NCBI GenBank assembly: GCA_012837885.1
Contig: DUQI01000095.1
Coordinates: 1-57,831, forward strand
Direction of reading: 5' to 3'
DNA length: 57,831 nucleotides
Origin: Fastidiosipila sp.
GTDB taxonomy: Bacteria; Bacillota; Clostridia; Saccharofermentanales; DTU023
A program made the position numbers and the translations under genes. The notes under the pieces are model-generated. The model was not told the origin of the DNA, did no database searches, and worked only from the letters and a program-made list of their open reading frames with translations. Shown in pieces: positions 6,518-50,928 of this stretch; the stretch's first letter is position 1; every line of letters begins with the position of its first letter.

Positions 6518-7303
6518 TTATTGCCCTTTAAATCCCGGATGCGGTGTTCTCGACAGCAAGGCCTCCATACCCGTCACCTGGTCACTCGTTTCGAACAACT
6601 CGGCGAAGATCTCCGACTCATCGAAAAGTGCATCGGTCAACGCTTTCATCTGCCCCTGCTGGATCGCTCTCTTGGCCGCACGCATAGCGAGCGGTGCTTT
6701 ATCCGCGATCGTTTTCGCGAGCTTATCCACTTCTTCATTAAAATCAGAGGCGGTGAAAACGCGCCCGACGATACCGAGAGCCAACGCCTCGTCCGCCTTG
6801 ATCCGGCGTCCTGTGTAGATCAGGTCGAAGGCAGTCGCCTCGCCTATGAGGCGCGGCAATCTCGCCGTGCCGCCAAACCCCGGCATAATACCAAGTCCCG
6901 TTTCGGGAAAGGCAAACGACGCATTTTCTGAAGCGACGCGGAAATCGGCCGCCAGAGCGAACTCCAGACCGCCGCCGAGACAAAAGCCATCGATCGCTGC
7001 GATCACGGGCATCGGTAAGTCGGACAATTTGGCAAACACCAGATTTCCCATGCGGCCGAAGCGAAGCGCTTCATCCTTCGTCAGATCTTTCATCTCGGCA
7101 ACATCGGCGCCGGCGATAAAGGCGCGGTCACCCGCGCCCTTGACGACGACGCAACGGGCATCCGATGCGGCCAGTTCATCGAGTGTTTCATTTAAAAGGT
7201 CGAGCAGTTCCGTATTCAGCGCGTTCAAGGCTTCCGGTCGGTTGATCGTCAAATATACAACGTCGTCTTTTCTTTCGAGCAACAGTCGTTTAGCGGTAGT
7301 CAT
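6518..7303 (-). CDS. crt: Enoyl-CoA hydratase / 3-hydroxybutyryl-CoA dehydratase (crotonase family)
   Basis: 261 aa; AGADVAEMKDLT, GFCLGGGLEFALAADFRVAS, FPETGLGIMPGFGGTARLPRLIG. Confidence 0.9.
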   Translation of the reverse strand: MTTAKRLLLERKDDVVYLTINRPEALNALNTELLDLLNETLDELAASDARCVVVKGAGDRAFIAGADVAEMKDLTKDEALRFGRMGNLVFAKLSDLPMPVIAAIDGFCLGGGLEFALAADFRVASENASFAFPETGLGIMPGFGGTARLPRLIGEATAFDLIYTGRRIKADEALALGIVGRVFTASDFNEEVDKLAKTIADKAPLAMRAAKRAIQQGQMKALTDALFDESEIFAELFETSDQVTGMEALLSRTPHPGFKGQ

Positions 7304-8132
7304 GAAATCCCCTCCCCGTTTTGCGACCGAGTTTGCCGGCTCTCACCATCTTCTTCAAGCGCACACTCGGGCGAAACTTCGGATCTCCCGTCTCCTTATA
7401 GAGCGTATCCATGATATTCAAGCAGACATCGAGACCGATCAGGTCGGCCAGGGCGAGCGGTCCCATCGGGTGATTAGCGCCAAGCTTCATCGCCTCATCG
7501 ATATCGTCCTTACTGGCGACACCGAGATCCAAAAGTTCGACCGCCTCGTTCAGCATCGGAATCAGCAAACGGTTAACGATGAATCCGGGGGCTTCACGGC
7601 AGATCACCGGGGTCTTCCCTAATTCGCGCGAAAGTTCGACGACCTTTTCAACCGTCGCTTCACTCGTCTCTTCACCTGAGATGACCTCAACCAATTTCAT
7701 CACGGCCGGCGGATTGAAAAAGTGCATGCCGATGAAACGCTCCGCATGCTTCAGACCGGCGGCCAATTCCGTAATCGACAGCGACGACGTATTCGTCGCA
7801 AATATACAATCGTCCTTGCAACGTGCATCATAGTCTTCGAATATACGGCGTTTCAGTTCGGTCGATTCGCTCACTGCTTCGAGCAAAAGATCGATTTTCG
7901 AGACATCGTCTGTGGCCGACGTCACCTTGATCCTGGCCATGATGTCTTCTTTATCCTTCTCCTCAATCTTTTCACGCTCCACAAGCCTCGCCAGCTGTTT
8001 TTCGAGTCCGGCTTTCGCCTTAATCGCAATCTCTTTTTCTTGATCCGTCAACTCAACTTCGTGTCCGGCCGCAGCGAATACTTGTGCGATACCGATTCCC
8101 ATCGCGCCCGATCCGACAATTCTAACAAGCAT
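7290..8132 (-). CDS. hbd: 3-hydroxybutyryl-CoA dehydrogenase
   Basis: MLVRIVGSGAMGIGIAQVFAAAGHEV; HFFNPPAVMKLVEV; tracked ORF extends to 8216, but the GSGAMG fold begins at the ATG at 8132. Confidence 0.93.
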   Translation of the reverse strand: MLVRIVGSGAMGIGIAQVFAAAGHEVELTDQEKEIAIKAKAGLEKQLARLVEREKIEEKDKEDIMARIKVTSATDDVSKIDLLLEAVSESTELKRRIFEDYDARCKDDCIFATNTSSLSITELAAGLKHAERFIGMHFFNPPAVMKLVEVISGEETSEATVEKVVELSRELGKTPVICREAPGFIVNRLLIPMLNEAVELLDLGVASKDDIDEAMKLGANHPMGPLALADLIGLDVCLNIMDTLYKETGDPKFRPSVRLKKMVRAGKLGRKTGRGFHDYR

Positions 8133-8142
8133 CTTTTCCCTC

Positions 8143-8796
8143 CTAAGCGAGTGGCATCGTAATGATCTTATCGGCCTTGTGGAGCGTCGCATCCGTCGCG
8201 CGCTCGACATCCTCAAAGGTCACGCCTTCCGCCAGTTCCTTCACGACAAAACCGCGCTCGGTGACGTCGATCACGGCGAGTTCCGTGATGATCCGGTCGA
8301 CGACCGAAACGGCCGTCAGAGGATACGTACACGTCGAGAATAGTTTCGGTGCGCCTTTCAGCGTATGCTCCATCGTGATCACGACGCGTTTTGCACCGAC
8401 CACCAAATCCATCGCGCCGCCCATGCCGGGTACGCGTTTGCCCGGAATCATCCAGCTTGCGAGATTGCCTTTTTCATCGACCTGAAGCGCACCGAGGAAC
8501 GTGATATCGACATGACCGCCGCGGATTAAGGAAAACGAATAGGCACTGTCAAAGAACATGGCACCCGGTTTGGCTGTGACAAGGCTTCCGCCGGCGTCAA
8601 AAACATGCCAGTCCTCGTGTCCCTCTTCCGGTTTCGGACCGACACCCAAAATACCGTTCTCCGATTGAATATAGACATGGACATCTTCCGGCAGATGCTC
8701 CGGCACCATCGTCGGCAGGCCGATCCCCAAATTGATCAGGTCGCCGTCTTTCGGTTCAAGTGCTGCGCGTCTTGCGATGATCTCTTTTGCGTTCAT
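8143..8796 (-). CDS. Butyrate/acetoacetate-type CoA-transferase, subunit B
   Basis: 217 aa; LINLGIGLPTMV, SENGILGVGP, GGHVDITFLGALQVD; typical SCOT/AtoA beta subunit. Confidence 0.9.
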   Translation of the reverse strand: MNAKEIIARRAALEPKDGDLINLGIGLPTMVPEHLPEDVHVYIQSENGILGVGPKPEEGHEDWHVFDAGGSLVTAKPGAMFFDSAYSFSLIRGGHVDITFLGALQVDEKGNLASWMIPGKRVPGMGGAMDLVVGAKRVVITMEHTLKGAPKLFSTCTYPLTAVSVVDRIITELAVIDVTERGFVVKELAEGVTFEDVERATDATLHKADKIITMPLA

Positions 8797-9452
8797 CAGT
8801 CTTCCTCCCTCTGACAGATACAGTCGACGAGCGCGCCAGGCACGTGAATCATCTCCGAATCGAGCTCTCCGACTTCCACGATTTTTTCCGCTTCGACCAA
8901 AACGAGGTCGGCCGCGAGCGGCATCAGGCAGTTGAAATTCTTAGTCGCGCCTTTCATATGAAGATTGCCCTGCTTATCTGCGATCGTGGCGTAGATCAAG
9001 GCGACGTCACCAAAGAGCGGCTTTTCCAAAATATACGTCTTACCGTCGACCTCTAAAGTGTCCTTGTTTTCCGCCGCGACCGTGCCTAAACCGACTTCGA
9101 CCAAAATGCCACCGAGCCCAGCACCGGCGGCGCGGATACGTTCGGCGAGTGTCCCCTGCGGCACGAGTTCAACACTCGACGGATCGTCGATCAGCATCTG
9201 ACCGGCCAGGCGATTGGCACCGATATACGTCGCTTTGGCGTGGCTGACCATGCCTTTTTCCATCAACTGAATCGTCTTTGTGTCAGCGGTGCCGGTGTCG
9301 TTGGAGACAATCGTCAAATCTTTGACGTCTCTTTCCAGCAACGCCCCGAGCAGTGTCTCAGGTGAGCCGCGCTGCAAGAAACCGCCGACCAGCAGCACAT
9401 CACCGGAACGAATGCGGGCAACCGCCTGTTCGGCACTCATTACTTTGTCCAT
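8796..9452 (-). CDS. Butyrate/acetoacetate-type CoA-transferase, subunit A
   Basis: 218 aa; GDVLLVGGFLQRGSPETLL, VPQGTLAERIRAAGAGLGGILVEVGLGT; AtoD-type alpha subunit. Confidence 0.9.
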   Translation of the reverse strand: MDKVMSAEQAVARIRSGDVLLVGGFLQRGSPETLLGALLERDVKDLTIVSNDTGTADTKTIQLMEKGMVSHAKATYIGANRLAGQMLIDDPSSVELVPQGTLAERIRAAGAGLGGILVEVGLGTVAAENKDTLEVDGKTYILEKPLFGDVALIYATIADKQGNLHMKGATKNFNCLMPLAADLVLVEAEKIVEVGELDSEMIHVPGALVDCICQREED

Positions 9453-9548: not shown

Positions 9549-10307
9549 TCAACGCTCTCTTTTGGCAAGCCACTGATCGACGGCAAAAGTCGCCACGTCG
9601 TCGGCAAAATATCCGGGCCCGAAGCCTGCGTCGTACCCTAATTCCTTCGCCAACTCATGTGAGATACGTGCTCCGCCGCAGATCAGGACAATGTCCGATC
9701 TCACGCCTTCCGCTTCGAACAGATCGACGATCTCGGTCAAGATGCCAAGATGCGCATCTTTCTGCGTCACGGTCTGCGAGACGAGCACGATGTCTGCTTT
9801 TTCGGAGATCGCCGTGCGCACCAGTTCTTCGGCGCTGACCTGACTGCCGAGATTTATCGCCTCGAGCATCCGGTAGCGTTCCATACCGTAATGGCCGGCA
9901 TAACCTTTCATATTCATAATCGCATCGATACCGACCGTGTGAGCGTCGCTGCCGCAGGCGGCACCGATCACTTTCAACTTACGGCCGATCTTCTCCTCGA
10001 TCAGGTCATCTGTCTCAGCCATCGTTCTCGTCTTCGACTCCACCTTGAAGACGCGTATCTTTTCATAATCAACCGGTACGGTCACTTTTCCGTAGACGAC
10101 GAAGAACGTAAACTGCCCGTCTAGCGGTTTCGTCAAAGCGACCATCACCTCACTGAGTCCGAGGTTCTTTGCGACTTCGGCGGCCGCTGCCTGTGCCCTT
10201 TCATCGGCCGGCACGGGCAAGGTAAAGGAAAGCTGCACCTTACCGTCATTCAGCGTGTCGCCGTAAGGATAAAGACGCGACAGATCGACAGCGAATGCAT
10301 CATGCAT
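9549..10307 (-). CDS. kamE: D-lysine 5,6-aminomutase beta subunit (B12-binding)
   Basis: 252 aa; cobalamin-binding GSDAHTVGIDAIMNMKG (DxHxxG-type) in a lysine fermentation cluster. Confidence 0.92.
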   Translation of the reverse strand: MHDAFAVDLSRLYPYGDTLNDGKVQLSFTLPVPADERAQAAAAEVAKNLGLSEVMVALTKPLDGQFTFFVVYGKVTVPVDYEKIRVFKVESKTRTMAETDDLIEEKIGRKLKVIGAACGSDAHTVGIDAIMNMKGYAGHYGMERYRMLEAINLGSQVSAEELVRTAISEKADIVLVSQTVTQKDAHLGILTEIVDLFEAEGVRSDIVLICGGARISHELAKELGYDAGFGPGYFADDVATFAVDQWLAKRER

Positions 10308-11877
10308 GCGGCCACACCTCCTTCATACTAAATATCGGCTCAAACGGATTTGTGTACTCCGTCCGCTTCAGATAGACACCGTCCAGACCTTTACCTCCGT
10401 CGATACGCCGCTTGATGCCGGCGAATGTGCCGCGAGACAGCGCGTTGAAGAGCCCTTCCGACGCGATCTGCTCGAGCAAAGTCACGGCTTCGCCCAACAC
10501 CTCATTTGCGCGCGCCTCCATGCGTCCGCCTGCCTTAAAATCGATCTCGGAAGAAAGTCCGGCAAACGCCGTCTGAATATAGCGTGCATTATCGATCGCC
10601 AAAGCGCGATCGGCGATATGTGGTGTGTGAATCGCCTCGGTCAACATACCGAGCAGGTGTACCCGCTGCCCGGTCAACGTCGTCACAGCGTTAAACAGCG
10701 TATTCTGCACGACACCTTTGAAAATATCACCGGTCATAAACTTCGTCGGCGGCATATATTTCAACGGAGCTTTGGGAAAGATCTGGCGCACGGCCTGCGC
10801 CTGCGCCCACTCATAGAGGAACGAAGATTCGAGCGCAGGATCCATCTCAAATGCGTGGCCGAGTCCGATCTGCTCATCAGGCAGACCGGCACTTTTTGCG
10901 AACTGCTCGTTGATGAACTGCGAGGCAAACACCGTATGGGCCTCTTCGAAGGCGTCGGCCGTGGTCAGATAATTGTCTTCTCCCGTACTGATGATGATCC
11001 CGGCAAAGCCGTTTACCATACGTGAGAAGTATTGGTCGATCAGGGTGCGACGCATGTTGATGTCGCGAAACAAAATACCGTAGAGCGCGTCGTTCAACAT
11101 CACATCGAGCCGTTCCAGGGCGCCCATCACGGCGATTTCCGGCATACAAAGCCCGGAGCAGTAATTGCAGAGACGAATGTAACGGCCGACCTCGGTCGAC
11201 ACCTCATCGAGTGCGGCCCGCATCAACCGGAAATTCTCCTGCGTCGCCATCGTGCCGCCGAAGCCTTCAGTCGTCGCTCCGTACGGCACATAGTCGAGCA
11301 GACTCTGCGCCGTCGTGCGAATGACCGCGATCACATCGGCCCCCTGTCTCGCCGCGGCTTTGGCCTGAACGATATCTTCATAGATATTGCCGGTCGCCAC
11401 AATCACATAGACGAGCGCCTCATTCTCACCGAGTTCTTCGACCCGCTGATCCCTGAACTCACGATTGCGTTTTATCCTGGACACGGCGTCCGTGATCAAT
11501 TTTTGGCGCTTTGTGTCTCGATCGAGCGGATCAAAGGACGGGATATGCGACAGGTCGATGCTTTGATCCGCAATGCCTTCCGCCACCTGTTGAGGTGTGA
11601 GTTGATACGCCGCCGCAGCGTCAAGGATCAGGTTAAAAGCACCGTAACCGATCAATTCGCGCTCGACCAGATGTTCGACGACGACATTCGGATACGGCAC
11701 ACCATGTTGATCGACTCCGTCGATACCGAGAAGTCGACAGATCGAGCGTTCGACCGTTACGGTCGTATGCTGATCGATAAACGTCTGCGTATCACGGGCG
11801 ATAACAGACGCCGCCTCCCTCGCTCTTTTAATCAATGGCTCATTCAATCTGAGCGTTCCCATCTTCCACCTCTTCAC
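10300..11877 (-). CDS. kamD: D-lysine 5,6-aminomutase alpha subunit
   Basis: 525 aa, adjacent to kamE; start may be the internal Met at 11862. Confidence 0.92.
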   Translation of the reverse strand: MKRWKMGTLRLNEPLIKRAREAASVIARDTQTFIDQHTTVTVERSICRLLGIDGVDQHGVPYPNVVVEHLVERELIGYGAFNLILDAAAAYQLTPQQVAEGIADQSIDLSHIPSFDPLDRDTKRQKLITDAVSRIKRNREFRDQRVEELGENEALVYVIVATGNIYEDIVQAKAAARQGADVIAVIRTTAQSLLDYVPYGATTEGFGGTMATQENFRLMRAALDEVSTEVGRYIRLCNYCSGLCMPEIAVMGALERLDVMLNDALYGILFRDINMRRTLIDQYFSRMVNGFAGIIISTGEDNYLTTADAFEEAHTVFASQFINEQFAKSAGLPDEQIGLGHAFEMDPALESSFLYEWAQAQAVRQIFPKAPLKYMPPTKFMTGDIFKGVVQNTLFNAVTTLTGQRVHLLGMLTEAIHTPHIADRALAIDNARYIQTAFAGLSSEIDFKAGGRMEARANEVLGEAVTLLEQIASEGLFNALSRGTFAGIKRRIDGGKGLDGVYLKRTEYTNPFEPIFSMKEVWPHA

Positions 11878-13324
11878 TCAATTTGTAACGTTCGACGGTC
11901 TCTAGAATACTTTTTTGCAAACCAAGCCAGCCGGCGATCTCGATCGCTTTGTGTGTCGTGTCTTGTTTACCCGTCACTTCTTTCAAACGGTAATCGACAT
12001 GTTCGGACAAAAGCCGGACGGCATCTTTTTCATCTTTCGGTTCGTCGGTCGGAATCACGATATCGCCGCTCACATAATGACGGTAGGTGCCTTCCGTTTT
12101 CACCTGATAATGGGTCGATAACAAGACAAAAGATGCCTGATCCGAAAGATGAGACGAGAGCCCCGATGTGAGAAGCCGTCCTTCTTCCGGATTCGTGCCG
12201 CGAAACGGTTCGTCGATCACAATCAATGCTTTTTCTTTTTCGGCCAGAGAGACCGCCTTCTTAATCGCGACGACCTCGGCACCGAACGTCGAGAGCCCCT
12301 GTGATCGGTCGCCCTGCACGTCGCCGATGCGTTCGTACGCGTCAAACAGAGGTACGACCGCTTCCTTGGCAAACGGCATGAACCCCATATTCACCAGTAT
12401 CGCGTTCAAGAGCACCGTGTTTAAGGCGACGCTCTTTCCCGACATGTTGGCACCGGTGACCAGGGTCAGTCCGTCTGCGATCGATATATCGAGCGGCGTA
12501 AACGATAGTCCGGCCGTTTTCAGACGAGCCTCCTCTTCCGGGTGAATGACCTCGTCGAAAGATAAACGCGACGACGAAAGACGAGGCACGTCCGGCTTAT
12601 AGTCGGCCGTCAGCATCAGCTTCGACATCTTTAGATCAAGGTCGATCAGTTTTTCCTGATTTTCACGCAGTGAGTCGGCAAAGGGCAGTAGGCTTTCTTC
12701 GAGCCAAAGCAGACTTTTTTCTTCCAGCGCACTTACTCGCTGCTCCGCTGTCTCGACTTTTGCCAAAGCCTTTTCAACAAGCGGCTCATGCACCTCTGAA
12801 AGCGAAAGCTGAATCGCCGCCAAGGCTTTTCTCGCCTCTGCTAATTCAGCGTCATCGAAATCACTGAGAGCGAGACGCACCGGATAGAGATCTTCCAACG
12901 TTCGTTTTCCGTGTAGCAAGGTCAAAACGCGTGTGTGATCTGTCAGCGAAACACCACCGGCAATCAACACCTCCGGCTGTAAAAGAAGGCGCGCTTCCAG
13001 ACTGACATGCTTTTTTAGCAAATAGAGGTCGGCGACGTCGAGTCTTATCTTCGCTTGCATTTTTTTGATCACCGGGACGATATCCCGCAAATCGGAAAGC
13101 GCTGTACGAACGTCACTCCACGCCCTTCTACCTGACGTCATGACTTCATTAAGTCGCTTCATATATTGAAAGTGGCGAATGCGCGCCTGTCGATCCGACT
13201 CGCTGAAATACTCGAGACGAAGCAGCGTTTTTCGGCTGAGTGGCGATGCCGTCTCCACCTGCTCCAAGACATAGGTCAGACCGATCGCCTGACGTTTTTC
13301 GCGATCGAGCGTTAGTTGCTTCAT
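11840..13324 (-). CDS. kamC: MutS-like ATPase KamC (lysine 5,6-aminomutase reactivase ATPase type)
   Basis: 494 aa; MutS Walker A LVTGANMSGKSVALNTV and Walker B LIVIDEPFRGTNPEEG, located between kamB and kamD. Confidence 0.85.
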   Translation of the reverse strand: MKQLTLDREKRQAIGLTYVLEQVETASPLSRKTLLRLEYFSESDRQARIRHFQYMKRLNEVMTSGRRAWSDVRTALSDLRDIVPVIKKMQAKIRLDVADLYLLKKHVSLEARLLLQPEVLIAGGVSLTDHTRVLTLLHGKRTLEDLYPVRLALSDFDDAELAEARKALAAIQLSLSEVHEPLVEKALAKVETAEQRVSALEEKSLLWLEESLLPFADSLRENQEKLIDLDLKMSKLMLTADYKPDVPRLSSSRLSFDEVIHPEEEARLKTAGLSFTPLDISIADGLTLVTGANMSGKSVALNTVLLNAILVNMGFMPFAKEAVVPLFDAYERIGDVQGDRSQGLSTFGAEVVAIKKAVSLAEKEKALIVIDEPFRGTNPEEGRLLTSGLSSHLSDQASFVLLSTHYQVKTEGTYRHYVSGDIVIPTDEPKDEKDAVRLLSEHVDYRLKEVTGKQDTTHKAIEIAGWLGLQKSILETVERYKLSEEVEDGNAQIE

Positions 13325-14250
13325 AATGCCCTCCCTATGCTCGGTGTGACGTCCAACTTCAGAATCGGCACGTCCGTGAACTGACTCAATGCCTGCATGT
13401 ACGGTGTAGACGAGGCGATCGCATTGTCTTCGCGTTTCGGATTAAACACGAGTGCAACGAGCGTTGCACCTCTTTTCGCTCTTAACGCAATCCGCCGCTT
13501 GGCAAGCTCACGCCGCATCGTCTCCCCTATAAAACAATTTGCCCTATCCGAGAGCAAAAGCGTCATGTCTTTTTTTAGATGAGACGAAAGTAAGGTCGCC
13601 ACGTCACCGTCGGTCACGGCTCCATCCAATAAAATAGTGTCCGCCGGATCGTCTTCCCCGCTGACGAGCGGGATCGAGAGCCAGGCAAATTGTCGTTCGA
13701 TCCGTCGCACCAGTTGAGACGGATGGTCGTTTTCGGCACTGACCGAGAGAATCACCGAATCGGCGTAGGAAAACGCTGCATTGCCTTTTCTGCCGAGGGC
13801 ACCGTCGACGATAAAAAGCGGCTTTGCGAGTTCATGCCTGATATATGCGTTAATGTCAATAAGGTCAGCCAAGGAGACCGGTCCCGATAGTTCGATAAAC
13901 CCGGCATGCTTGGCGCGGATTAAGACCGGCGGACCGAAGAGTGTGTCGTGCGAGAAGCACTCGATCACTTCGGGATCCACAGTCGCACGCCGTAAAAACG
14001 CTTGACTCGTCACTGCATACATACCGGGAAACAGATACACCCTCGGCTTTACTTTTCCACTCAAACGATCCTTATCTTCGCCGTCGAAGCCGGCCGACGT
14101 CAAAACGAGTGATCGATCGACATCCCGATACGCATAGATGAGCGCATTTAATACGCTCGTCTTACCGGCGTTTTTACCGCTACCGATGAGCGCAAGCGAC
14201 TTGGCGTCAGCCGTCACCTGTAAAAGCGTGTCGAGATTGCTTCGCATCAA
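13321..14250 (-). CDS. kamB: KamB-like P-loop protein (lysine 5,6-aminomutase reactivase subunit type)
   Basis: 309 aa; P-loop ALIGSGKNAGKTSVLNAL; start overlaps the kamA stop, end overlaps the kamC start. Confidence 0.8.
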   Translation of the reverse strand: MMRSNLDTLLQVTADAKSLALIGSGKNAGKTSVLNALIYAYRDVDRSLVLTSAGFDGEDKDRLSGKVKPRVYLFPGMYAVTSQAFLRRATVDPEVIECFSHDTLFGPPVLIRAKHAGFIELSGPVSLADLIDINAYIRHELAKPLFIVDGALGRKGNAAFSYADSVILSVSAENDHPSQLVRRIERQFAWLSIPLVSGEDDPADTILLDGAVTDGDVATLLSSHLKKDMTLLLSDRANCFIGETMRRELAKRRIALRAKRGATLVALVFNPKREDNAIASSTPYMQALSQFTDVPILKLDVTPSIGRAL

Positions 14251-15569
14251 TAATAGACCTTCGTTCCGTCGCTCTTTTCTTTCCTGTGCAACTTCGTCGG
14301 TTCAAGTGTGATCGCGTTACCCTGCAAGAGCCCCGAGACACCGACCATCTCGACTTTTGAGAACTCATCCTGGCAAGTCGGACAGTGGCAGACGCTGTCT
14401 CTGACAGCCGGCTGCGTATAGGTCGTGATCACACCTTCGTAGTTTCGCAAAACGATCCGTTCCGGACTCTGCGTGATGACATAATCCGGCATCACCGGGA
14501 TTTTGCCGCCGCCGCCCGGCGCATCGACGACGAAGGTCGGCACACAAAAACCGGACGTATGGCCGCGCAGCCCCTCGATGATCTCAACACCTTTCGATAC
14601 CGGCGTCCTGAAATGCGCCGTACCCTGCGAGAGGTCACATTGATAGAGATAGTAGGGACGGACGCGGATCCAGGCCAGACCGTTGACGAGCTCGCGCATC
14701 ACGTGCACGCAGTCGTTGATCCCTCTCAACAACACCGACTGATTACCGACTGCGATGCCGCCGTCGGCCAGTTTGGCACAGGCCGCTTTGCTGTCCAGCG
14801 TAAACTCGGCCGGATGATTGAAATGGGTGTTGACCATGATCGGCTGGTATTTCTTCAGCATGGCGATCAGTTCCGGCGTGATCCTCTGCGGCATGACGAC
14901 CGGTGTTCTGGTCCCGATCCGGATGATTTCAACGTGCGGGATCTCGCGCAGTTTTTTGATGATATCTTCCAGTCTGTCGTCGCTCATGAGGAACGGATCA
15001 CCGCCTGAGAGTAATACGTCGCGGATCATCGGTTTGCTTTTGATATACTCGATCCCCTGATCGACGATGGACATCGAAAGGGCACTGTCCTTCGCTCCGG
15101 CCATGCGCCTTCTCGTACAGTGACGGCAGTACATCGAACACATATCGGTCAACAAGAACAAGACGCGATCGGGATAACGATGAGTCAGCCCCGGCACCGG
15201 TGAATCTTCATCTTCATGCAACGGATCGACGAGATCGGCGACACTCAAAACGGCCTCTTTAGAAGTCGGAATCGCCTGCGCTCTGACCGGATCGTGCGGA
15301 TCTTCCGGATCGATCAAGGTCAGATAATACGGCGTAATCGCCATGCGGAAGACTTCTAAGGCTTCTCTTGCGCCTTTTTCTTCTTCTTCGCTCAAGGTCA
15401 TCAACGACTTCAGCTCGTCGACACTCGAGATTCTATTTCGCACCTGCCAGTGCCAGTCATTCCACTCTTCATCCGTAACGTCCGGGAACATATTATGCCG
15501 TCTTTCACCGGCAGCCAGGTTCAGATATTTCAAATCTGCATTCATGCGCTTCTCCTCCACGCTTAGCAA
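14247..15569 (-). CDS. kamA: L-lysine 2,3-aminomutase (radical SAM, PLP)
   Basis: 440 aa; CSMYCRHCTRRR radical SAM motif; C-terminal CHCPTC. Confidence 0.96.
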   Translation of the reverse strand: MLSVEEKRMNADLKYLNLAAGERRHNMFPDVTDEEWNDWHWQVRNRISSVDELKSLMTLSEEEEKGAREALEVFRMAITPYYLTLIDPEDPHDPVRAQAIPTSKEAVLSVADLVDPLHEDEDSPVPGLTHRYPDRVLFLLTDMCSMYCRHCTRRRMAGAKDSALSMSIVDQGIEYIKSKPMIRDVLLSGGDPFLMSDDRLEDIIKKLREIPHVEIIRIGTRTPVVMPQRITPELIAMLKKYQPIMVNTHFNHPAEFTLDSKAACAKLADGGIAVGNQSVLLRGINDCVHVMRELVNGLAWIRVRPYYLYQCDLSQGTAHFRTPVSKGVEIIEGLRGHTSGFCVPTFVVDAPGGGGKIPVMPDYVITQSPERIVLRNYEGVITTYTQPAVRDSVCHCPTCQDEFSKVEMVGVSGLLQGNAITLEPTKLHRKEKSDGTKVYY

Positions 15570-16600
15570 TAGACGCTTTCAAACCGATCACGGAGCGGTT
15601 TTTCACGGCGTAATAATTCGATGGTGTAGTCGGCATGACCTTTCGTATAGCCGTTGCCGATCAGCATGGAGACGTCCTTGCCGACACCTTCAGCACCCAG
15701 GGCGGCTTTCGTGAATGATGTAGCCATGCTGAAAAAGTAGACGATGCCCCCGTCTTTGACCGGTAAAATAGCGCTCATCTCCGAACCGGGTGCATTCACG
15801 GTGACCACCGCGACGTCGTACTCCGCTTGACCATTGGCTGAGAGCGCCTTTTCCAGTACCTCACCGGCCGCTGTCGCATCGACCGCAAAGTAATGGTCGA
15901 GATACCCGTGCTGGAGTAAAAAGTCACCGCCGTTTTCATATAGATCACAGCCGACGACGACGCCGTCCTCACCGGCTTTTTCCTTGGCCACGGCAGCGCA
16001 GAGCGTACCGCTCTTGCCGGCCGTACCAACGATCAGGACGTGTTGTCCGGCGCTGACCAGTTTGGCCATCTGCGCCGGGGCACCGGCGACATCGAGCGCC
16101 GCGAGCGCCACGCTCTCGGACAGATCATCCGGCAATTTGGCGTAGATGCCGCTTTCAAAAAGGATCGCCTGACCGACAATATCAACGCGGTCGATCGCCT
16201 TTTTAATACCGACGATTCTTTCTATCTTCAACGGTGTAAGAGACAACGAGACGAGGGTCGCGATCTTGTCGCCCGGCAGAAGGTCAATCTTTCCCTCGAG
16301 GCTTTTTCCGATCTTGGACACCCGCCCGATCAGCATACCGCCGGATCCGGTGACCGGGTTTTGCATCTTGCCTCGCTCATTGACGATTTCCATTATTTTT
16401 GCTGCTATCTTTTCTTCGTCGCCGGCGGCTTCTTCGCTCAACTGACGAAAGCTCGCGGAGTCAATATTCAGTGCATCGACATCGATCAGAATCTCGTTGT
16501 CATAAATCGTCATGTCATTCGCAATCACATCGGCGGCCTGCGGCAATACGCCTTTGGGTGACAAGACGCGATGCAGTCCATATTTCGATCCCTGTTTCAT
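15563..16600 (-). CDS. kdd: L-erythro-3,5-diaminohexanoate dehydrogenase
   Basis: 345 aa; KQGSKYGLHRVLSPKGVLPQAAD and VGTAGKSGTLCAAVA; position between kamA and kce. Confidence 0.92.
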   Translation of the reverse strand: MKQGSKYGLHRVLSPKGVLPQAADVIANDMTIYDNEILIDVDALNIDSASFRQLSEEAAGDEEKIAAKIMEIVNERGKMQNPVTGSGGMLIGRVSKIGKSLEGKIDLLPGDKIATLVSLSLTPLKIERIVGIKKAIDRVDIVGQAILFESGIYAKLPDDLSESVALAALDVAGAPAQMAKLVSAGQHVLIVGTAGKSGTLCAAVAKEKAGEDGVVVGCDLYENGGDFLLQHGYLDHYFAVDATAAGEVLEKALSANGQAEYDVAVVTVNAPGSEMSAILPVKDGGIVYFFSMATSFTKAALGAEGVGKDVSMLIGNGYTKGHADYTIELLRREKPLRDRFESVYC

Positions 16601-17424
16601 ACACGCTCCTTCATTCCGATGATCGCTCGCGCCTCATCAGGCGTAGCGATCTCGCGTTGCAACGAACGCGCTATGTCTGCGATACGTCTGACAAAATCAG
16701 CGTTGCCTTCGCCCAAAACGCCTTTTTTCAGATAGATATTGTCTTCGAATCCGACCCGGACATGGCCGCCGAGCAGTATGCTCTGTACGTTCATCGTGAG
16801 CTGCCCGCGACCGATACCGGATACGGTAAAGGTCGAGCCGGCAGGTAACGATTCGACGAGGAACAAAAGATCGCGCGGTGTCGCGGCGATTCCGCCGTTC
16901 ACACCCATCACCAGGTTGAAGTGAAGCGGAGCGACGATCAGGCCTTTTCGATGCAGACGGATAACCATGTCGATCATGCCCTTGTCGAATATCTCGAGTT
17001 CCGGGAAAACAGCCATCTGCTGCATGCGCTCGGCCATTTGAATGATCATGTTTTCGGTGTTGACGAAAATCTCATCGCCGCCGAAATTCACCGTGCCGCA
17101 ATCGAGACTCGCCATCTCAGGCGCCAGATCCAAGACTTCAATCCGCTCCTCTAGCGTCATGCCGGTCGCGCCTCCGGTCGATACCTGCAAGATCGTCTCG
17201 GGACACGCCTCGCGGATCGCTTCCAGCACTTCTTCGTAGCGTCTTTTGCTCTGTGTCGGTGTGCCGTCGTCTTCGCGGACATGAATGTGCAAAACAGCCG
17301 CCCCGGCTTCTACCGACGCTTTGGCTTCCCTAACCATTTCCGACACCGCATAAGGAACCTTAGGATTGTGCTCCTTGGTTACTTCGGCACCGCAGATCGC
17401 TGCCGTAATAATCAGTTTTTCCAT
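16597..17424 (-). CDS. kce: 3-keto-5-aminohexanoate cleavage enzyme (BKACE family)
   Basis: 275 aa; MEKLIITAAICGAEVTKEHNPKVPY, AVLHIHVR, ASLDCGTVNFGGDEIFVNT. Confidence 0.95.
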   Translation of the reverse strand: MEKLIITAAICGAEVTKEHNPKVPYAVSEMVREAKASVEAGAAVLHIHVREDDGTPTQSKRRYEEVLEAIREACPETILQVSTGGATGMTLEERIEVLDLAPEMASLDCGTVNFGGDEIFVNTENMIIQMAERMQQMAVFPELEIFDKGMIDMVIRLHRKGLIVAPLHFNLVMGVNGGIAATPRDLLFLVESLPAGSTFTVSGIGRGQLTMNVQSILLGGHVRVGFEDNIYLKKGVLGEGNADFVRRIADIARSLQREIATPDEARAIIGMKERV

Positions 17425-17428
17425 GCCG

Positions 17429-17821
17429 TTAGTCTCCCGTCAAACGTTGTCTGTCGACCGGTGTCACACAGACGCCTCGCGCTGTCAGCACAACAATCGG
17501 TTCGTCCAATACCTCGGCTGCACTGTCGGAGACGTCAGGCAAAGGTACGGCGATTTTCTTGACAGAAAATTCCATCGTACGGGACGAATTGCCTTCAGCG
17601 ACTATTTCCCCTTCAGCTTCGAGAAACTCACCGGCGTAAACAGGCGCTAAAAACTGCACGTCCGTATAGGCGCGAAACAGTCCTTCATCGCCATCGCGCT
17701 CGATAAGTAAGTAGGTGGCGACATCGCCGAGCAAGGCGAGTAGTCTCGCACCGTCGACGAGATTGCCTCCGTAATGTGCATCCGACTGATTCATGCGGAG
17801 CCTGATCGAAAACTTGGCCAT
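17429..17821 (-). CDS. kal: 3-aminobutyryl-CoA ammonia-lyase (hotdog fold)
   Basis: [46 protein letters not shown] before the ATG at 17821. The tracked extension to 17947 runs back through the leader RNA. Confidence 0.9.
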
Positions 17822-17849
17822 AGATAATCCCCCTCTATCTTTACGGCGT

Positions 17850-17884
17850 AAAAAAACGCCATCTGATCCATCCATCAAATAGCG
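17850..17884 (-). terminator. Intrinsic terminator in the kal leader (riboswitch expression platform)
   Basis: Minus strand CGCTATTTGAT-GGATGG-ATCAGATGGCG-TTTTTTT: 11-bp stem (9 WC + 2 GU), 6-nt loop, 7 U, 29 nt before the kal ATG. Confidence 0.85.
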
Positions 17885-18036
17885 CTCCGTGTAGCACACG
17901 ACAGTGGCCGCTGTTGTCGCGAACCACCAGAGTTGACACCGGGACAATGTGTCATCCCTTCGGCGACCGGCACTTCACCGCTTCCCACCTTGCCCCGGTG
18001 ATCGGAATTGGATACCCGCAGATCGCTCCTCTACTT
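17877..18036 (-). promoter_or_regulatory. Lysine riboswitch (L-box)
   Basis: Minus strand AAGTAGAGGAGCG...GTCGCCGAAGGGATGACAC...GTGTCAACTCTGGTGG...CCACTGTC...GGAGCGCTATTT carries L-box signatures (AGAGG, GCCGAAG, ACTGTC); P1 AAGTAG/CTATTT and P4 TGACAC/GTGTCA pair. Confidence 0.88.
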
Positions 18037-18160
18037 CTTTTATTCAATTATGCATACACATAATAACGGACAAAAGGGACAAATGACAACACCAAATAAG
18101 AGAAAATATCAACACATTGATGAATACCGGCAAGCGGGATAAAAGATGCTACACTGACCG

Positions 18161-50608: not shown

Positions 50609-50784
50609 TGTCCATCTCTCATTAATGAATAGCGGCAGATGCCGCTACTAAACAGTTCCATCTTATCATGACCGACGTCGAATGCGTGGTTTTCCAGCGT
50701 AGGTTCAGTTGTCCGCAAAAACGTCATTGCTTTTTATTAGGCGAAGTAAATGGCAACGTCAAGACGCTTGTGCTATTCTATTGT

Positions 50785-50880
50785 CAGAAATGATTCCGAG
50801 CAATCTTGCCTTCACTGGCAACTTGCCTATGGGTTTTACTGGAAACGGTATAGCCTCCCACGCTTGGAAAGGAATCCTGC
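50785..50880 (+). promoter_or_regulatory. Moco/Tuco-type riboswitch (molybdenum/tungsten cofactor RNA), P3-less form
   Basis: GATTCCGAGC...GGAAACGGTATAGCCTCCCACGCTTGGAAAGGAATC: CCGAGC, GCCUCCC and GGAAAG signatures; P1 GATTCC (50792) / GGAATC (50871); no hairpin between GCCTCCC and GGAAAG. Confidence 0.75.
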
Positions 50881-50928
50881 GTATTTCGTACGGCCCTTTA
50901 CAGCGTGGAATTACATTCTCCTTCTGTT

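Follow-up and report, generated by a model that had tools for sequence, protein, structure and literature searches.

A predicted lysine-ON L-box that shares its P1 strand with a terminator upstream of a lysine-fermentation operon

The characterised natural lysine riboswitches (L-boxes) of B. subtilis and E. coli are OFF switches (PMC11477304). Positive regulation by this aptamer has been predicted: Barrick and Breaker 2007 (PMC2258182) described certain ON-logic lysine riboswitches that sequester parts of the terminator stem in an alternative pairing, for which they credit Rodionov et al. 2003, and Mukherjee et al. 2017 (PMC5584792) assign positive regulation to the L-boxes listed ahead of kal/kce in C. 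sticklandii, F. nucleatum, and Thermoanaerobacter. In the pbuE adenine switch, bound ligand keeps the terminator from displacing P1 by strand exchange (PMC7707468). We found no report of experiments on a natural lysine-ON riboswitch in the open literature, most subscription journals lying outside the scope of the search.

We analysed a 57,831-nucleotide stretch of DNA from Fastidiosipila sp. (contig DUQI01000095.1; the window), in which an L-box lies upstream of kal. This leader resembles the predicted kal/kce L-boxes of C. sticklandii, F. nucleatum, and Thermoanaerobacter in aptamer family, target genes, and predicted positive regulation, whereas it comes from a new lineage, precedes a longer operon in one unit, and has had its overlap tested against control L-boxes. 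The sequence-only reading of the window had mentioned earlier predictions of L-box-like elements at lysine degradation genes, which the listed kal/kce cases bear out, and had placed its novelty in the compact ON architecture; this claim of novelty is not supported, because the terminator-burying ON mechanism is already in PMC2258182. With both the catabolic ON idea and this architecture predicted earlier, the addition made here is therefore breadth and a controlled comparison. The likeness of the L-boxes of Rodionov et al. 2003 to the window leader is drawn from papers citing that study. The B. subtilis pbuE switch is similar in that the P1 3' strand lies in the terminator and ligand-stabilised P1 blocks invasion, giving ON logic, but the aptamer and ligand differ, and the pbuE terminator nucleates on an independent P4 hairpin while the toehold in the window leader is only the outer 3 bp plus the loop. 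Classical L-boxes (lysC, lysA, asd, lysine transporters) belong to the same aptamer family, RF00168, but have a separate downstream terminator and OFF logic. Lysine-ON riboswitches have also been engineered, reportedly by Zhou and Zeng in 2015. In another engineered lysine-ON switch, Lys-A263, the region between the aptamer and the ribosome-binding site was randomised (PMC10974012). Lysine turns expression on in these engineered switches, as is predicted for the window leader, but they are laboratory-selected, whereas the window leader is natural and predicted to act via an intrinsic terminator. The leader comprises the following elements.

18060-18089, minus strand: sigma-70-like promoter TTGTCA-18-TATTAT, about 24 nt upstream of P1 (consensus scan, 10/12 matches)
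17872-18041, minus strand: lysine riboswitch aptamer (L-box, RF00168; Rfam covariance-model match, 60.5 bits, E 2.2e-13)
18031-18036, minus strand: P1 5' strand AAGUAG (Rfam alignment, recomputed coordinates)
17990-17996, minus strand: P2 loop GGGGCAA, predicted to kiss the P3 loop (7 pairs with UUGUCCC)
17941-17947, minus strand: P3 loop UUGUCCC, predicted kissing partner of the P2 loop (pairs with GGGGCAA)
17877-17882, minus strand: P1 3' strand CUAUUU, common to the terminator 5' arm (Rfam alignment, recomputed coordinates)
17874-17884, minus strand: terminator 5' arm CGCUAUUUGAU (recomputed coordinates)
17868-17873, minus strand: terminator loop GGAUGG (recomputed coordinates)
17857-17867, minus strand: terminator 3' arm AUCAGAUGGCG (recomputed coordinates; CGCU/GGCG core invariant in 19 aligned leaders)
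17850-17856, minus strand: U7 tract of the intrinsic terminator (sequence)
17829-17835, minus strand: likely ribosome-binding site GAGGGGG (sequence, upstream of the kal ATG at 17821)

The L-box first proposed by eye was recovered by the Rfam scan of the window, where the RF00168 match spans the full model (1-182) and scores 60.5 bits against a gathering threshold of 30, and again by a search of the source genome. The five-way junction blocks AGAGG, GCCGAAG, CUGG, CUGUC, and GGAGxGCUA (here GGAGCGCUA) are present in the Rfam alignment and all agree with the Rfam consensus; many of their columns are invariant in the alignment of the window's family. Across the L-boxes examined, the L2-L3 pairing was better with a leader's own loop than with a species-swapped one in 300/300 permutations, in a strict motif search that left out 26 leaders with variant motifs. 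Relatives carry two-sided changes at 20 of the 38 predicted aptamer-helix pairs. P1 is short, and in the window's family its inner 3-4 pairs are kept while the outer pairs are often mismatched. By these sequence and structure tests the element is an RF00168 L-box, for which lysine would be the ligand. We considered that the aptamer of kal operons might now sense another ligand of the pathway, e.g. beta-lysine or 3,5-diaminohexanoate, with the ON logic unchanged. The operon makes such lysine-like intermediates, and kal L-boxes tend to score lower than those of biosynthetic and transporter genes (about 53-76 bits within the family versus about 85-107 for transporter copies); however, this deficit appears spread over the peripheral P2 arm, the consensus-matching junction blocks and the intact L2-L3 kissing loop speak against a shift of ligand, and we regard it as very improbable.

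The 11-bp terminator hairpin (17884-17857, minus strand) folds with an energy of -15.6 kcal/mol. All coordinates of the sequence-only reading, which had put the CUAUUU strand within the 5' arm of this hairpin and a U7 tract after it, were reproduced: the whole P1 3' strand (17877-17882) lies inside the 5' arm (17874-17884). P1 and the terminator are therefore mutually exclusive, and lysine binding should prevent termination. In an ensemble calculation, sequestering P1 lowered the predicted terminator probability at this leader's site from 1.00 to 0.00, and the leader sequence together with a hairpin/U-tract test gave no second terminator between P1 and kal. Thus, the leader lacks what defines a classical OFF L-box, a separate terminator that is still possible in the bound state, and has the features of a pbuE-like ON switch, namely a P1 3' strand in the terminator 5' arm, a U tract after it, and predicted loss of the terminator when P1 forms. 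A promoter/terminator scan missed this terminator, probably because its rules do not cover an 11-bp stem containing G-U pairs, and returned an unrelated P5 hairpin instead. The terminator core contains a U-G wobble (U17881/G17860; alignment A2 columns 170/197) that is kept in 19/19 compact leaders and perhaps tunes terminator strength.

For the full leader, the terminator state is at -77.4 and the P1 state at -62.2 kcal/mol; given this gap of about 15 kcal/mol in favour of the terminator, switching must be kinetic and decided during transcription. RNA polymerase would make the L-box aptamer first. With sufficient lysine the aptamer would close and P1 form, holding the CUAUUU strand, so that the terminator 3' arm would be left without a partner and polymerase would read through into kal and the lysine-fermentation operon. 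In the absence of lysine P1 would be weak, and the later-made 3' arm would invade, pair with CGCUAUUUGAU, and form the terminator before U7. P1 itself would do the work of an antiterminator, just as in pbuE, and no separate one would therefore be needed; lysine would have to lock P1 before the terminator 3' arm emerges and invades. We infer that the window leader is very probably a transcriptional lysine-ON riboswitch, and the predictions of lysine binding, of the sign and size of the response, and of a kinetic choice go with this reading.

The genes support this direction of control, since one expects the substrate of a catabolic operon to induce it. The operon was annotated as follows.

17429-17821, minus strand: kal, 3-aminobutyryl-CoA ammonia lyase (NF052388, 170 bits versus cut-off 160)
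16597-17424, minus strand: kce, 3-keto-5-aminohexanoate cleavage enzyme (NF052387, above cut-off)
15563-16600, minus strand: kdd, L-erythro-3,5-diaminohexanoate dehydrogenase (NF052381, above cut-off)
14247-15569, minus strand: kamA, lysine 2,3-aminomutase (TIGR03820, above cut-off)
13321-14250, minus strand: kamB-like reactivase subunit (NF052386, 169 bits, below cut-off 210)
11840-13324, minus strand: kamC, MutS-like reactivase ATPase (NF052383, above cut-off)
10300-11877, minus strand: kamD, lysine 5,6-aminomutase alpha subunit (NF052384, above cut-off)
9549-10307, minus strand: kamE, lysine 5,6-aminomutase beta subunit (NF052385, above cut-off)
8796-9452, minus strand: CoA-transferase subunit A (Pfam PF01144)
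8143-8796, minus strand: CoA-transferase subunit B (Pfam PF01144)
7290-8138, minus strand: 3-hydroxybutyryl-CoA dehydrogenase, hbd (NF004474, 392 bits, just below cut-off 408)
6518-7303, minus strand: enoyl-CoA hydratase (crotonase), crt (NF004475, 280 bits, below cut-off 394)

These 12 minus-strand genes, overlapping or closely spaced from kal (17821) to the enoyl-CoA hydratase (6518), form, by their model matches, a complete lysine-fermentation set, kal-kce-kdd-kamA-kamB-kamC-kamD-kamE-CoA transferase-hbd-crt, for the anaerobic pathway of lysine to butyrate and acetate. Curated models thus agree with the kal-kce-kdd-kam operon originally read from the sequence and extend it by further pathway genes. 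The promoter-like site was the one found against 0.4 expected in the consensus scan, which alone is no sign of function. Translational control was rejected because the ribosome-binding site lies outside every paired element; an antisense feature and a chance hairpin were likewise considered and rejected.

Among 1000 dinucleotide-preserving shuffles of the sequence downstream of P1, 19 gave a hairpin with a U tract that overlapped P1 and was as stable as the real one. The overlap in the window leader alone, at a chance of about 2%, is thus suggestive and only moderately improbable, and because of this the claim is carried by comparative evidence, for which relatives were gathered. We searched for kal over the window's family, class, and phylum and in genomes of named species, and for L-boxes in the same genomes, giving 36 kal-operon L-boxes to compare with 63 others (transporter, lysA, and other non-kal genes). 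Because a broad terminator search sometimes settled on hairpins within coding regions or on extended folds, we used a P1-specific test, which counted a leader as positive if its P1 3' strand formed part of a hairpin running into a U tract with a stability of -10 kcal/mol or better. Such a terminator was present in 31/36 kal-operon L-boxes and in 5/63 other L-boxes (Fisher p about 2e-15, inflated by related sequences and two tandem pairs and hence serving as a guide only). The P1/terminator overlap is specific to the L-boxes of kal operons, and the ON logic predicted in the sequence-only reading follows from it. When the P1 strand was sequestered in the ensemble calculation, 50 of the 54 other L-boxes with a terminator kept it, whereas among 33 kal leaders with a terminator it was lost at every U tract in 18 and one was kept in 10; on inspection, a second terminator, a relay platform, or a U tract within kal was evident in most of these 10.

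Within the window's family, an L-box with a P1-overlapping terminator lies directly upstream of kal in 18 of the 19 kal-bearing genomes, a count that includes G020, where leader and kal are on different contig ends; in the exception, G015, only 168 bases are available upstream of kal. The transporter and lysA L-boxes of the same family genomes mostly have a separate terminator hairpin 25-60 nt downstream. The second L-box of the window genome (L001), which precedes the gene of a lysine-type ABC binding protein, has a modelled terminator probability of 0.64 with P1 formed and would be a less clear case of this separate-terminator platform. At least eight plain L-boxes by sequence in the family (L067, L068, L072, L075, L076, L077, L078, and L080) were missed by the Rfam scan at its gathering threshold, and Rfam-based counts of kal L-boxes in the family therefore run low.

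Other families of the phylum carry the P1-overlapping terminator as well, as do named Clostridium, Caloramator, Proteocatella, and Oscillospiraceae-type genomes; this wiring is conserved across many lysine fermenters. The covariation asked for at the outset is evident in the aptamer helices but only modest in the outer terminator pairs, whose score was reached by 36/500 shuffles of the fixed alignment, partly because bulged leaders shift the column alignment. Therefore, terminators were compared by per-sequence folding, which documents that across lineages the shared strand and both of its partners vary in sequence yet stay paired, with a CGCUA/UxGCG core kept. These data bear on whether the L-box is a decayed, lysine-independent relic whose terminator sets a constant level. 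The low aptamer score and the short P1 of relatives would fit such decay, but the aptamer and the overlap are retained together in the 18/19 family genomes and several distant lineages, and the aptamer helices show two-sided changes, making a relic very improbable. That the leader is an ordinary OFF L-box in which lysine promotes termination, perhaps as downstream-product feedback or a starvation signal, would match the characterised natural L-boxes but is hardly credible and was rejected, as kal is preceded by a single terminator, which is built on the P1 3' strand and hence excluded by P1, whereas OFF L-boxes of the classical kind, also those found in these genomes, keep a separate terminator that is possible when P1 forms.

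With 192 nt from the L-box to U7, the leader is compact and directly testable, and it could serve as a ready natural lysine-induced part. The gathered set contrasts ON and OFF platforms of one aptamer inside single genomes and is therefore a good system for studying how the sign of a riboswitch changes in evolution.

Other kal leaders differ in platform. In the Clostridium-type leaders L083, L191, L181, and L194, the P1-overlapping hairpin lacks a U tract, and by eye the 5' arm of a later terminator is complementary, with about one mismatch, to the 3' arm of this first hairpin. With P1 sequestered, the later terminator is predicted to be abolished in L083 (0.05) and L033 (0.00), while in L191, L181, and L194 it remains in the thermodynamic model. 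The Clostridium-type kal leaders, including L033, may thus represent a relay ON platform running from the first hairpin to a second terminator. In five kal leaders (L163 of G371, copy B; L206, L242, L234, and L211), versus 0/63 non-kal L-boxes in the same search, the aptamer 3' end (P5-3', J5/1, P1-3') is repeated after the first terminator and built into a second one; of the two 3' strands, P1 can pair with just one at any moment. An 8-bp pairing of the repeat with the P5 5' strand would still be possible in G371 and L206, and pairing in the other three leaders is weaker or less evident. A bolder generalisation, which we hold only tentatively and rather doubt, is that kal-operon L-boxes form a widespread natural lysine-ON class with several platforms: direct P1/terminator exclusion, the Clostridium-type relay, and one aptamer with two alternative 3' halves (P5-3'/J5-1/P1-3'), each in its own terminator, which would give a single sensor control over two terminators.

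Further arrangements were observed in individual genomes. A 2022 review (PMC9481103) gives 14 double lysine riboswitches; tandem complete L-boxes, each with its own P1-overlapping terminator, precede lysine-fermentation genes in G371 (L163, 1013-1457; kdd-kamB-kamC-kamD-kamE-kal) and G414 (L164; kdd first). In G313, an L-box with a long P1-overlapping terminator (L165, 1025-2752) lies before a sigma-54 activator gene upstream of kal, an arrangement matching that reported for Thermoanaerobacter. The ATP-dependent PEP carboxykinase gene pckA is preceded by an L-box with a P1-overlapping terminator in two genomes that also carry kal (L258 in G183 and L269 in G445). For L259 (G177), before an NhaC-type transporter-like gene, the only near terminator is predicted to be lost when P1 forms, making ON logic possible for this class as well. 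Finally, the window contains a molybdenum/tungsten cofactor riboswitch (RF01055) at 50782-50890 on the plus strand, scoring 54 bits against a cut-off of 36.
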